Assembly: GCA_019747795.1 (NCBI GenBank)
Contig: JAIEQK010000016.1
Coordinates: 1-48,292 of the forward strand
Reading direction: 5' to 3'
Length of the DNA: 48,292 nucleotides
Source of the DNA: Gammaproteobacteria bacterium
GTDB lineage: Bacteria > Pseudomonadota > Gammaproteobacteria > Ga0077536
Positions 37,176 through 41,792 of the stretch are shown one piece after another (within the stretch, counting starts at the first letter, position 1; each line of letters opens with the position of its first letter). The notes below the pieces were generated by a model, which saw nothing but the letters and a program-made list of their open reading frames with translations, did no database searches and had not been told where the DNA came from. The translations under genes and the position numbers were made by a program.

Positions 37176-37445
37176 CTAGACTGGTGTGAACAGGTAGGCG
37201 CCGACGATGATCGCCGTCACCACCGCCACCCACACCTCGAGGATGGCGCGCCACGGCATCGCGCCCGCCGCGAGTTCCATGAAATGCAGGAACACGAGGC
37301 GGATCTTGAAGGCGGCGATCAGCAGGATGGCCAGCGTCGCGGCGCGCGCCGGGGCGTCGTTCTCGGCCAGCGCGAACACCACCAGGGTCGCCAGGGCCAG
37401 CACCGCCCAGGCGCGCGTGACCGTGAGTCGCGCCAGGCCGCTCAT
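37176..37445 (-). CDS. Prokaryotic cytochrome c oxidase subunit IV-like protein
   Basis: 89 residues with three membrane helices (about 11-28, 35-57, 66-87). The segment KIRLVFLHFMEL (47-58) matches the prokaryotic COX4 family. Such subunits help assemble or stabilise heme-copper oxidases. It overlaps the COX III-like gene by four bases (ATGA), so translation is coupled. No catalytic subunit I or copper subunit II is in the window. Confidence 0.8.
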   Translation of the reverse strand: MSGLARLTVTRAWAVLALATLVVFALAENDAPARAATLAILLIAAFKIRLVFLHFMELAAGAMPWRAILEVWVAVVTAIIVGAYLFTPV

Positions 37446-38062
37446 GGCGCGCGCAGCAGGTAGATCATGGGAAACAGCACAAGCCACAGCAGGTCGACCA
37501 TGTGCCAGTAGCAGCCGCCTGATTCCAGCCAGGTCAGGTAGCGAGCGTCCTGGTGTTCCGCGCGGGTCTTCGCCAGGCAGAGGGCCAGCACCGCCATGCC
37601 GCCGACGTAGTGCAGGAAATGCAGCCCGGTCAGCGCGAAGTAGAACATGAAGAAGTCGTTGGTGAGCAGGGTGATGCCGGCGTCGATCTTGTGCCAGTAC
37701 TCGTACACCTTGGTCAGCGCGAAACCCGCGCCGACCAGCATCGCCAACGTGAGATGACGTCGCACCGCCGCGCGCTGTCCCTCGCGCGCGCGGTGCACCG
37801 CCAGCGCCACCAGCCAGGAGCTGGTCAGCAGGATCAGGGTGTTCAGCGCGCCAAGCAGCGGGTCGAGCGCCTGGCGCGAGGTCTCGAACAGCGCCGGCGC
37901 CTTGTAGCGCTCGGTCATGAACAGCAGGAACAGCACCGCGAACAGGCAAAGGTCCGCGGTGATGAACGACCACACGCCCTCGTCACCGGCCAGCCTGCGC
38001 TGACCGGTGACGGGAGACGTGTCGAGGTCGGCGTGCCCCGCGGTCGGGTCAGAGGGTCGCAC
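37442..38062 (-). CDS. Cytochrome c oxidase subunit III / NorE-like protein
   Basis: 206 residues with five helices (about 32-49, 72-90, 104-122, 137-161, 186-204). The pattern GVWSFITADLCLFAVLFLLFM, TGLHFLHYVGG and the C-terminal HMVDLLWLVLFPMIYLL is typical of heme-copper oxidase subunit III and the short NorE variant. NorE accompanies nitric oxide reductase in denitrifiers, but norB and norC are not here. The start is a GTG (38060-38062) that overlaps the end of the upstream membrane gene by 14 bases. Central gene of a tightly packed three-gene cassette. Confidence 0.85.
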   Translation of the reverse strand: MRPSDPTAGHADLDTSPVTGQRRLAGDEGVWSFITADLCLFAVLFLLFMTERYKAPALFETSRQALDPLLGALNTLILLTSSWLVALAVHRAREGQRAAVRRHLTLAMLVGAGFALTKVYEYWHKIDAGITLLTNDFFMFYFALTGLHFLHYVGGMAVLALCLAKTRAEHQDARYLTWLESGGCYWHMVDLLWLVLFPMIYLLRAP

Positions 38063-38822
38063 CCGCGACCTTTCCGACGCCTTCGCCCGCTTGCGCCCGT
38101 TCCGTCGAGGTCGCGCCCCGCGCTTCGGCCTCCAGGCGCCGCAGCGCCGACACCATGTAGGTGGTCAAGCCGACGATCCAGAAGAACCACACGAAGAACT
38201 CGATCCAGAAGTTGAGCGTGCCCTGGCGCGCGAAGATGCCGCCCTTGAAGTAGGGCATGAGGAGTTCGGCGACGAAGCTCACGCCGACCCAGATGCCATA
38301 CCACGCCATCCACTTCGGGATCAGCGGCTCGCGGCGCGGGTCCTGGATGAAGGCCATGCCGAGCGCGATCATCTGCACCGAGGTCACCCAGAAGCACATG
38401 TCGATCATGAGCCAGCCCATGTCGTACAGGAGCTGCAAGATGGTGTCGTCCAGCACTTCCGGGCGATAGGCGCCGGCCAGCCAGAACACGCAGGAACACA
38501 TCAGCGGCACGACCGTGAGACCCGCGCCCCACACGGCGAGCGTGGACAGCACGTTGTTGTCCTTCTCGATGCCGATCTCGACGATCTTCGCGAGCGCCAG
38601 GCCCCACAGGAGGTAGAACACCGCGAACATCATCGCCATGCCCATGCCGATACGGATGCCGTTCGCCTCCGCGCGGAACATGTCGCCGATGTCCTTGGCC
38701 GGCAGGTCGGCGGGCACGGGCGGGATGGTGTGCCCGAGGATGCCCCAGAACACGATGAACACGGCCAGGAATACCGGGCCGCACCAGGTCAGGAAACGCA
38801 GGTACTTCAGTCGCTCGACCAT
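38049..38822 (-). CDS. Six-helix membrane protein, first gene of the COX III/IV-like cassette
   Basis: 257 residues, with predicted helices at about 11-30, 56-80, 92-116, 129-158, 169-190 and 203-226. Marked residues include W26, GHTIPPVPAD (30-39), C109 and C111, and many Trp and Met in the last two helices. No heme-ligand histidine pattern of subunit I is present (only H31 is obvious in the membrane part), so it is not the oxidase core. The family is not recognised; joint transcription with subunit III- and IV-like genes suggests a subunit or partner of a membrane electron-transfer complex. The ATG at 38820-38822 has GAGGGG nearby. Transcribed from the promoter at 38914-38942. Confidence 0.75.
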   Translation of the reverse strand: MVERLKYLRFLTWCGPVFLAVFIVFWGILGHTIPPVPADLPAKDIGDMFRAEANGIRIGMGMAMMFAVFYLLWGLALAKIVEIGIEKDNNVLSTLAVWGAGLTVVPLMCSCVFWLAGAYRPEVLDDTILQLLYDMGWLMIDMCFWVTSVQMIALGMAFIQDPRREPLIPKWMAWYGIWVGVSFVAELLMPYFKGGIFARQGTLNFWIEFFVWFFWIVGLTTYMVSALRRLEAEARGATSTERAQAGEGVGKVAGATL

Positions 38823-38908
38823 GGAAGATTCCCCTCGAAGTGGTGTGTGGCCGCCGCGCGGCATGACGTCGCGGGCTCGCCGGACCCGGGCTCCCCGGCA
38901 CGGGTATG

Positions 38909-38940
38909 GCCAGATGGTAAGCATGCTTACTAAATCTGGC
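38909..38940. promoter_or_regulatory. Nested palindrome, operator candidate
   Basis: A perfect 14-bp palindrome GTAAGCATGCTTAC (38917-38930) lies inside a wider inverted repeat, GCCAGAT (38909-38915) and ATCTGGC (38934-38940). The inner palindrome sits between the -35 and -10 boxes of the cassette promoter and overlaps the -10. This is a typical repressor operator position, for instance for a TetR- or GntR-type protein. The regulator is not identified. Confidence 0.7.
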
Positions 38941-38942
38941 AA
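38914..38942 (-). promoter_or_regulatory. Promoter of the COX III/IV-like cassette
   Basis: -35 TTGCCA (38937-38942, five of six matches) and -10 TACCAT (38914-38919), spacer exactly 17 bases. Transcription would start near 38907 and leave an 85-base leader before the first cassette gene. Confidence 0.7.
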
Positions 38943-38966: not shown

Positions 38967-38972
38967 TACAAT
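38967..38972 (+). promoter_or_regulatory. Possible -10 box of the TPP lyase gene
   Basis: TACAAT lies 44 bases before the lyase start on the plus strand. No -35 box is seen, so an activator may be required. The nested palindrome lies 27 bases upstream and could affect both directions. Confidence 0.35.
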
Positions 38973-39016: not shown

Positions 39017-40669
39017 ATGGCAACACTGAACGGATCGACCCTCATCGCCCAGAGCCTCAAGCGCCAGGGCGTGAAGCAGGTGTTCGGCGTGATGGGCTTC
39101 CCCATCGTCGAACTCGCGCAGGTGGTGCAGAACGAGGGCATCGACTACTACGGCTTTCGCAACGAGCAGTCGGCGAGCTACGCGGCCGGCGCGGTGGGCT
39201 ACATGACCGGCCGACCGGGCGTATGCCTGACGGTCTCGGGGCCGGGCATGGTGCACGCGGTGGCGGGACTGTCGAACGCCTGGGCCAACTGCTGGCCGAT
39301 GCTGCTGGTGAGCGGCGCGCCCGATTCCTACCAGCGTGAGCAGGGCGCGTTCCAGGAGGCGCCGCAGCTGGAATCGGCGCGGCCCTACGTCAAGCTCGCG
39401 ACGCGTCCCGATGCGCTCGCGCGGGTGCCCGCCTACGTCGAGAAGTGCGTGCGCACCGCGATCTACGGGCGTCCCGGCGCGGTGTATCTCGATCTCCCCA
39501 ACGACATCATCGCCGACACCCTGGCCGAGGGGGACGTGCGCTGGGCGCCGTGCTGTCCGCCGGCGCCGCGCACGCTCGCCGATCCCGAGCAGGTGGAGGC
39601 CGCGCTCGCCGCGCTGCGCGGCGCGAAGCGGCCGCTGGTGATCGTCGGCAAGGGCGCGGCCTACGCCCGCGCCGAGCACGAAGTGCGGCGCTTCATCGAT
39701 GCGACCGGCCTGCCGTTCCTGGCCTCGCCGATGGGCAAGGGCGTGGTGCCGGACGACCATGCCCTGTCGGTCGCGCCGGCGCGCTCGCTCGCGCTGCAGG
39801 AGGCGGACGTCGTGTTCCTGGTCGGCGCGCGGCTCAACTGGATCATGCATTTCGGCCTGCCGCCGCGCTTCGCGGCCGACGTCAAGATCATCCAGCTCGA
39901 CATCGCCGCGGAGGAGATCGGCACCAACGTGCCGGCGGAGGTCGGCCTGGTGGGTGACGCGCAGGCGGTGATGGCGCAGTTCAACGAGGCCTTGGCGGCT
40001 GAGCCCTGGCGCTTCGACGCCGGTTCTCCGTGGTGGACGGCGCTCAAGGCGAAGATCGCCGAGAACGACGCGCAGGTCGCGGCCATGATGCGGGACGACA
40101 GCCTGCCCATGGGCTACTACCGCGTGTTCGCCGCCATTCGCGCCGCGCTGCCGAAGGACGCGGTGATCGTGAGCGAGGGGGCCAACACCATGGACATCGG
40201 CCGCGGCGTGATGCCGAACTTCGCGCCGCGCCTGCGCCTCGACGCCGGCACCTTCGGCACCATGGGCGTGGGGCCAGGCTTCGCCGTGGCCGCGGCGGTG
40301 GTGCATCCCGACAAGCGCGTGTTCTGCATCGAGGGCGATTCGGCCTTCGGCTTCTCCGGCCTCGAAGTGGAGACCGCCTGCCGCTATCGCCTGCCCATCA
40401 CCTTCATCGTGGTGAACAACAACGGCATCGGCTCCGGCCCGACCGAACTCGGCGAAGTGGTGCCGCCCAACGCCTACACGCCGAACGCGCGCTACGACCA
40501 GGTGATCGAGGCCTTCGGTGGGCGCGGCTTCTTCGTCAACACGCCGGCGGAGCTCGAGAGCGCGCTCGGCGCGGCGGCGCGCGAGACCGACAGACCGACG
40601 CTCATCAACGTGATGATCAACCCGACCGCGACGCGCAAGCCGCAGAAGTTCGACTGGCTGACGCGCTGA
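39017..40669 (+). CDS. ThDP-dependent oxalyl-CoA decarboxylase / 2-hydroxyacyl-CoA lyase family enzyme
   Basis: 550-residue thiamine-diphosphate enzyme. The cofactor-activating glutamate is E50 in GFRNEQSASYAAGAVGYMTG. The pyrophosphate motif begins GDS (440-442) and closes at NNN (467-469). The middle FAD/ADP-like domain has PLVIVGKGAAYARAEHEVR. The C-terminal TRKPQKFDWL tail and general pattern match the OXC/HACL branch rather than acetolactate synthase. Reaction choices are decarboxylation of oxalyl-CoA or reversible cleavage of 2-hydroxyacyl-CoA to formyl-CoA and an aldehyde; no frc (formyl-CoA transferase) is nearby, which slightly favours the lyase. Divergent from the membrane cassette, convergent with the LysR gene. 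Confidence 0.85.
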   Translation: MATLNGSTLIAQSLKRQGVKQVFGVMGFPIVELAQVVQNEGIDYYGFRNEQSASYAAGAVGYMTGRPGVCLTVSGPGMVHAVAGLSNAWANCWPMLLVSGAPDSYQREQGAFQEAPQLESARPYVKLATRPDALARVPAYVEKCVRTAIYGRPGAVYLDLPNDIIADTLAEGDVRWAPCCPPAPRTLADPEQVEAALAALRGAKRPLVIVGKGAAYARAEHEVRRFIDATGLPFLASPMGKGVVPDDHALSVAPARSLALQEADVVFLVGARLNWIMHFGLPPRFAADVKIIQLDIAAEEIGTNVPAEVGLVGDAQAVMAQFNEALAAEPWRFDAGSPWWTALKAKIAENDAQVAAMMRDDSLPMGYYRVFAAIRAALPKDAVIVSEGANTMDIGRGVMPNFAPRLRLDAGTFGTMGVGPGFAVAAAVVHPDKRVFCIEGDSAFGFSGLEVETACRYRLPITFIVVNNNGIGSGPTELGEVVPPNAYTPNARYDQVIEAFGGRGFFVNTPAELESALGAAARETDRPTLINVMINPTATRKPQKFDWLTR

Positions 40670-40676
40670 GCGCGCC

Positions 40677-41597
40677 TCACGGCGCGTAGCGCTTGACCGC
40701 GGCCTCCAGGTCGGCGAGCAGTTCTTCGGCCGCTGGGGGCAGGCTGCGATCGACCAGGGTGCCGAGCAGCACAGGGAGATCGAGCAGCGCGGCCTGGTGC
40801 CCCGGTGTGCGCACCGCGACGAAACCGCCGCTCGCGATCTCCGTGTGCAGCATGGCGGCGGTGGTGAAGCCCACCGCGTCGGTCTCGCGCACGATGGCGC
40901 GCACCACGCCGAAGTCGTTCACGATCACGGCGGCGTCGGCGCGCGCCGCGGCGCCGCTCTCCATGCGCAACTCCTCGGCGATGCGTCGCACGAACCAGCG
41001 CGGGCTCGGCCCCTGCACGATGGCGTGACCGAGGATGGCGGCCAGGCTGTGCTCGCGGCCGTCGGCCAGGGGATGGCCGGGCCGCACGAAGGGCAGGGCG
41101 CGGATGAGGCCGAGTTCGCGCAGCACGAGGCCGGAGGTCGGCACATCGGGCTGCACGCCGAGGAAGAAGTCGACGCGCTTGTCGCGCAGTTCCTGCACGA
41201 GGGCCTCGGAGGCGAGCGCCTGCAGGCGAAAGCGCAGGCCCGGGTAGCGCTCCATGCTGCGCGCGATGGCCTCGGTCAGGTAGGGTTCGATGAGCCCGGC
41301 CTCGGCGCCGATCGCGAGCCGCCCGCGGGCCGAGCCCTTGATCAGGCTGATCTCGCGGTGCGCCTCGTCCATCACGCGCAGCGCCTGCATGGCGGCCTGC
41401 ACCACCACCCGGCCGTAGACCGTGGGATGGGTGCCGCGCCTGTCGCGCTCGAACAGGCGCGCGCCGTAGGCGGTCTCGAGCCGGGCGATCACATCGCTCA
41501 GCGTCGACTGCGACATGCCGAGGGTCTCCGCCGCACGGCGCATGTTGCCGGTCAGGGCGAGCTCGGTGAGGGCCGCCAGCTCGTCGCGATGGTTCAT
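40677..41597 (-). CDS. LysR-type transcriptional regulator
   Basis: 306 residues: N-terminal winged helix (LAALTELALTGNMRRAAETLGMSQSTLSDVIARLE) and a two-lobed effector domain from about residue 90. The ligand is unknown. It sits between the lyase and amidohydrolase genes, divergent from the latter, the usual layout for a LysR regulator and its target. A perfect inverted repeat (41614-41633) lies 16 bases before its start. The ATG at 41595-41597 fits the family; upstream frame extension covers the control region. Confidence 0.92.
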   Translation of the reverse strand: MNHRDELAALTELALTGNMRRAAETLGMSQSTLSDVIARLETAYGARLFERDRRGTHPTVYGRVVVQAAMQALRVMDEAHREISLIKGSARGRLAIGAEAGLIEPYLTEAIARSMERYPGLRFRLQALASEALVQELRDKRVDFFLGVQPDVPTSGLVLRELGLIRALPFVRPGHPLADGREHSLAAILGHAIVQGPSPRWFVRRIAEELRMESGAAARADAAVIVNDFGVVRAIVRETDAVGFTTAAMLHTEIASGGFVAVRTPGHQAALLDLPVLLGTLVDRSLPPAAEELLADLEAAVKRYAP

Positions 41598-41613
41598 ACA
41601 CTCGGCCAGGTAG

Positions 41614-41633
41614 GTGACCGAAAATCCGGTCAC
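41614..41633. promoter_or_regulatory. Inverted repeat, probable LysR binding site
   Basis: Perfect arms GTGACCG (41614-41620) and CGGTCAC (41627-41633), 6-base spacer, in the LysR/amidohydrolase intergenic region. It lies at about -40 to -21 from a start predicted by the TATTAT box (41642-41647) of the amidohydrolase gene, which lacks a good -35. ATCCGGT also recurs at 41624-41630 and 41646-41652, 22 bases apart (two helix turns), suggesting a second protein contact. Confidence 0.6.
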
Positions 41634-41792
41634 ATCGATTCTATTATCCGGTTTTACGAACGGCAATCTTGGTGCGAGACTTGCCCCCGCACGTGAGCCG
41701 CCGCCCCAGGCTGGGGAGCAGCGCCGCGCTGAGGCTCAAGGCCGGCCGCCCACGTCACCGCATCCATGCAAGCATTTCCGGAGGTCTCACGT

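Follow-up and report, generated by a model that had tools for sequence, protein, structure and literature searches.

Transcriptional regulators of the MarR family bind inverted repeats of the kind described here as dimers, and several of those acting in CoA-dependent catabolism leave their sites in response to CoA thioesters (PMC4737184; PMC5487221). Among the closest described systems is that of CouR, a MarR-family repressor of p-hydroxycinnamate catabolism in Rhodococcus jostii RHA1 (PMC4737184). The system that we propose shares with CouR a MarR repressor with several inverted-repeat promoter sites in one catabolic regulon, its own promoter included, as well as a single site serving divergent promoters and a pathway involving acyl-CoA (PMC4737184). 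However, the CouR boxes (cATTGA-N5-TCAATg) overlap the -35 element, whereas the 20-bp site described here, with the consensus ATNGTANGCATGCNTACNAT, overlaps the -10 element; the gene content also differs, the sequence similarity is only distant, and the ligand mechanism of CouR is carried over here as an analogy. The SlyA/MarR structures 3q5f and 2fbh provide a second point of reference, as our candidate regulator shows a clear sequence match to them (E about 1e-11) that spans the wHTH and dimerisation region. A symmetric site read by a dimer is common to these and to the proposed system, but the operator sequence and the residues of the recognition helix are different.

The site lies in the window, that is, the whole 48,292-nucleotide stretch of gammaproteobacterial DNA analysed here, between a membrane-protein cassette and a divergent enzyme gene (Table 1). 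Sequence comparison indicates that it is very probably the operator of a homodimeric MarR-family repressor, encoded on contig C309 of the same genome, that governs one dispersed regulon for oxygenase and beta-oxidation-type catabolism. We infer that regulation proceeds by binding, repression and release by an acyl-CoA thioester of the pathway.

Table 1. Coordinates of the features discussed (window positions unless a contig or locus is given)
Feature	Position	Strand	Sequence or basis
Operator-like site, 20 bp	38914..38933	.	ATGGTAAGCATGCTTACTAA, 1 mismatch to consensus ATNGTANGCATGCNTACNAT; recurrence in genome and relatives, four-genome alignment
Palindrome core, 14 bp	38917..38930	.	GTAAGCATGCTTAC, perfect, read directly; chance estimate
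Outer repeat, left arm GCCAGAT	38909..38915	.	not conserved, probably coincidental
Outer repeat, right arm ATCTGGC	38934..38940	.	not conserved, overlaps -35 hexamer
Predicted -35 hexamer TTGCCA	38937..38942	- (38942-38937)	sequence; TTGNNN equivalent in same register at about half of sites
Predicted -10 hexamer TACCAT	38914..38919	- (38919-38914)	sequence; TAC[CTG]AT in same register at about half of sites
Cassette gene 1, 257-aa multi-helix membrane protein	38049..38822	-	homologs 49-73% identical
Cassette gene 2, COX3-like membrane protein	37442..38062	-	PF00510, E=1.6e-18
Cassette gene 3, prokaryotic COX4-like protein	37176..37445	-	PF03626, E=1.4e-10
Divergent ThDP enzyme (lyase), oxalyl-CoA decarboxylase-like	39017..40669	+	NF006721, 575.6 bits (cut-off 557)
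LysR-family regulator	40677..41666	-	Pfam; rejected as main candidate
20-mer site between CoA ligase and ferredoxin-reductase genes	C309 37271		own genome
20-mer site between MarR and acyl-CoA dehydrogenase genes	C309 44445		own genome
20-mer site, weaker, between P450 and CoA-transferase genes	C316 48798		own genome
Orphan cassette	37176-38822		
Orphan cassette	L010:4986-6617		
Orphan cassette	L011:4992-6282		
Orphan cassette	L009:5001-6609		
Orphan cassette	L012:2355-3703		

The site and the cassette that it precedes

A preliminary description of this locus had reported the palindrome, the arms around it and the two hexamers of the promoter, all of which we could read directly at their positions. 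It had the palindrome filling the space between the hexamers; the perfect 14 bp extend beyond the spacer, however, since their last three bases (TAC) already begin the -10 hexamer. A 14-bp palindrome alone is not rare in the window, which has a GC content of 68% (18 perfect ones found against a simulated mean of 10.65), whereas the AT-rich type is (one with at least 8 A/T bases found, 0.275 expected). Even with up to 3 mismatches allowed, the window contains no other match to the 14-mer. A genome-wide search for further copies, as suggested in the preliminary description, yielded no second exact copy in the 5.94 Mb, and at 2 mismatches the 14-mer was found at the level of the control (4 versus 3), for which reason the 20-mer, which does recur, was used for searches instead.

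Conservation is a stronger argument than the palindrome statistics for judging the site to be more than chance. When the regions upstream of the cassette in the own genome (G000) and in three relatives (G001, G002 and G010) were aligned, the near-invariant block coincided with the palindrome: the bases T-GTA-GCATGC-TAC-A were kept, and little else in a row. The 20-mer upstream of the cassette matches the consensus exactly in G001 and G002, and those of G000 and G010 each differ from it at one position. The proposal of an operator-like site inside the cassette promoter, made on the understanding that the palindrome should be conserved before homologous cassettes, is borne out in all three relatives. 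No such site was found upstream of the more distant cassettes of Zavarzinia, Rhodoferax, Burkholderiales and Novosphingobium, and hence the operator belongs to this bacterial family and not to the cassette in general.

The cassette itself, previously regarded as unknown, is so only in part, as the second of its three proteins is COX3-like and the third COX4-like. For the first protein, profile searches returned no Pfam or NCBIfam family, and its structure model (pLDDT 79.8) gave no significant PDB fold match. Orphan cassettes of this type, consisting of the unclassified membrane protein, a COX3-like protein and usually a COX4-like protein, are organised in two or three genes with no oxidase subunit I gene beside them (Table 1). 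In Rhodoferax and another Burkholderiales genome, the cassette is located near genes for an AlkB/XylM-like hydroxylase and a ferredoxin reductase. Our literature searches on the cassette found nothing. COX3-like and COX4-like proteins without an adjacent subunit I gene also occur as orphans of the NorE/NorF type. The cassette shares with these the COX3/COX4-like pair and the lack of a neighbouring subunit I gene, but it also encodes a third membrane protein, to which no family could be assigned, and is linked to hydroxylase and CoA catabolism, not to nitric oxide reduction.

Regarding the divergent enzyme, it should be noted that a second equivalog, TIGR03254, scores under its cut-off. It is possible that this lyase gene is also under operator control. 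A TACAAT element at positions 38967-38972, which precedes the start codon of the lyase gene by 45 bases and is present ahead of that gene in G001 too, is possibly a separate lyase promoter.

Promoter geometry

The predicted minus-strand promoter, with a spacer of 17 bp and 9 of the 12 consensus bases, faces the membrane operon; transcription would start near position 38907, about 85 bases ahead of the operon's first start codon (38822), and continue through all three membrane-protein genes. The conserved 20-bp form contains the entire -10 hexamer. At about half of 20 sites, such a hexamer forms the outer portion of an operator half, and TTGNNN-17/18-TAC[CTG]AT occurs in a fixed register with the operator, the arrangement and spacing (16-18 bp) of a sigma-70-type promoter with an overlapping operator. 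No promoter in the matching register was found at the cassette site of G010. In three genomes, the intergenic region between the MarR and acyl-CoA dehydrogenase genes contains TTGACA-17-TACTAT and, on the opposite strand, TTGACG-16-TATAGT, and both overlap one operator.

Based on this geometry, a MarR dimer bound at the cassette promoter would lie over its -10 element and spacer and block RNA polymerase, the overlap with the -10 element being as expected for steric repression. The same protein probably controls its own gene and the divergent acyl-CoA dehydrogenase operon, the divergent pair of CoA-ligase and ferredoxin-reductase genes, and the P450/CoA-transferase pair. A promoter on each strand overlapping one operator fits dual repression, in which a single dimer would repress the dehydrogenase operon and the MarR gene itself. 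Repression would probably be relieved by an acyl-CoA of the pathway, a ligand suggested by analogy.

It is very unlikely that the MarR protein, when bound to the site, instead activates transcription or has a dual role in which it also switches on the divergent lyase gene. Activation is known for some MarR proteins (PMC4737184), and the genes on either side of the site are divergent, but a position over the spacer and -10 element of the cassette promoter is a repressing one, and the operator does not include the TACAAT element near the lyase gene.

Recurrence of the site and its candidate regulator

In the own genome, the 20-mer was found seven times at up to 3 mismatches, against none for the reversed control pattern, and three times at up to 1 mismatch, against about 0.007 expected by base composition. 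Its recurrence at three other places (Table 1) indicates that the earlier view of a single cassette had missed a regulon of multiple operons. Sites at the cassette and at these three places are also present in G001 and G002, and G010 has five sites within 25 kb of one contig, which also carries the MarR gene, the ligase, the dehydrogenases, a P450 and the COX3-type cassette in duplicate. One of the duplicates (L030:1656-3015, contig C56) encodes a first protein that is only about 21% identical; next to it are a gene for a zinc alcohol dehydrogenase and two sites resembling the operator. G000, G009, G382 and G383 encode a PF00487 hydroxylase, judged from its sequence to be of the AlkB/XylM type, that is 73-86% identical to the one of G001, and in G001, G009, G382 and G383 no more than a few kilobases separate the hydroxylase and MarR genes. 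The operator sequence (GTACGCATGCGTAC or GTAAGCATGCTTAC) had no description in the literature searched. The regulon appears to be undescribed, and is ordinary in kind.

Co-occurrence with the site was tested for the MarR gene and for two rival regulator genes, the adjacent LysR and a clustered TetR, and the only one that tracks the site is the MarR-family gene (C309, about 44.5-45.1 kb), which is located on a different contig from the cassette. The protein has a winged-helix domain (PF12802, E=9.3e-15; PF01047, E=7.5e-10). In a survey of 36 family genomes, close MarR orthologs, defined by E below 1e-60, were present in seven (G000, G001, G002, G009, G010, G382 and G383); sites with at most 1 mismatch were present in six, all of which carry a close ortholog. 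The naive p value of this co-occurrence, 3.6e-6, ignores relatedness and so overstates the case. A site is found near the MarR gene in all seven ortholog genomes, and it lies upstream of that gene in five (G000, G001, G002, G010 and G383), with a weaker one in G382; palindromic sites at both its own and its target promoters are thus present, as expected of a MarR regulator. Against this view, the strong site follows rather than precedes the MarR gene in G382 (0 mismatches, just downstream) and G009 (2 mismatches, about 0.5 kb past the gene), and the association of site and MarR gene could be due to co-inheritance within a clustered pathway.

The TetR-family gene (PF00440) is a rival in that it is located in the same C309 cluster as the MarR gene, and TetR operators are often palindromes that overlap promoters. 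Its binding to the operator is nevertheless highly improbable: no site adjoins it, and orthologs of this one clustered TetR gene that was tested are confined to the three own-genus genomes, whereas sites also occur in others. Still harder to sustain is that the operator is bound by the LysR-family regulator encoded beyond the lyase gene, with lyase and cassette both under its control. No other regulator gene is closer, as the preliminary description had pointed out, and it is retained within the genus, but four site-bearing genomes (G009, G010, G382 and G383) lack an ortholog and three with an ortholog (G007, G008 and G391) lack good sites, a failure to track the site for which it was rejected as the main candidate. 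Moreover, the usual LysR box is T-N11-A, to which a symmetric 20-mer of even length is a poor fit. Finally, that the nested outer repeat forms a second functional operator for tight two-layer control, as the significance formerly attached to the nesting would have it, is barely credible and was dropped, since its arms, although exact over 7 bp (such arms occurring within 16 bp in only 6 of 426 simulated palindromes), are off-centre by 1 base from the inner palindrome, are partly explained by the -35 hexamer and are missing in all three relatives (G001, G002 and G010), so that the repeat is probably coincidental.

Recognition helix, operator centre and implications

Three diverged MarR paralogs (in G010, G324 and G383) have upstream sites (CTCGTAAGGTACCGAACGAC, GTAGTACGGTACCGCACTAT and AAAGTACGGGTCCGTACCAA) with the same outer half and a changed centre, GTAC or GGTC instead of CATG. 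Their recognition helices read GE[TC]V in all three, versus GGLV in the seven orthologs, and in an alignment the position of the G-to-E change corresponds to Arg65 of SlyA, which contacts bases (PMC4737184). The paralog sites match 9 of the 11 half-site bases, compared with at most 8 for 11 more distant MarR genes, a thin margin given that the true ortholog of G010 also reaches just 8. The shift is based on three sequences, one of them with an imperfect site, and may represent a single evolutionary event. Upstream of a luciferase-like gene in G008 (L064), two GCGTACTAT half-sites are present in direct orientation, 15 bases apart, near a MarR gene whose helix reads GSLV.

A more far-reaching interpretation, which we consider possible rather than probable, is that an undescribed MarR subfamily controls a new hydroxylase-based pathway, in which the COX3/COX4-like complex would be a dedicated accessory of the hydroxylase, and that the operator centre switched from CATG to GTAC or GGTC via the change in the recognition helix.

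In summary, the analysis places a palindrome first seen in isolation within a defined regulon, names a MarR-family protein as the candidate regulator, and ties an orphan COX-like membrane cassette to a catabolic pathway of oxygenase and acyl-CoA steps. In addition, the regulon would provide a small natural experiment on how the recognition helices of MarR proteins set operator specificity.
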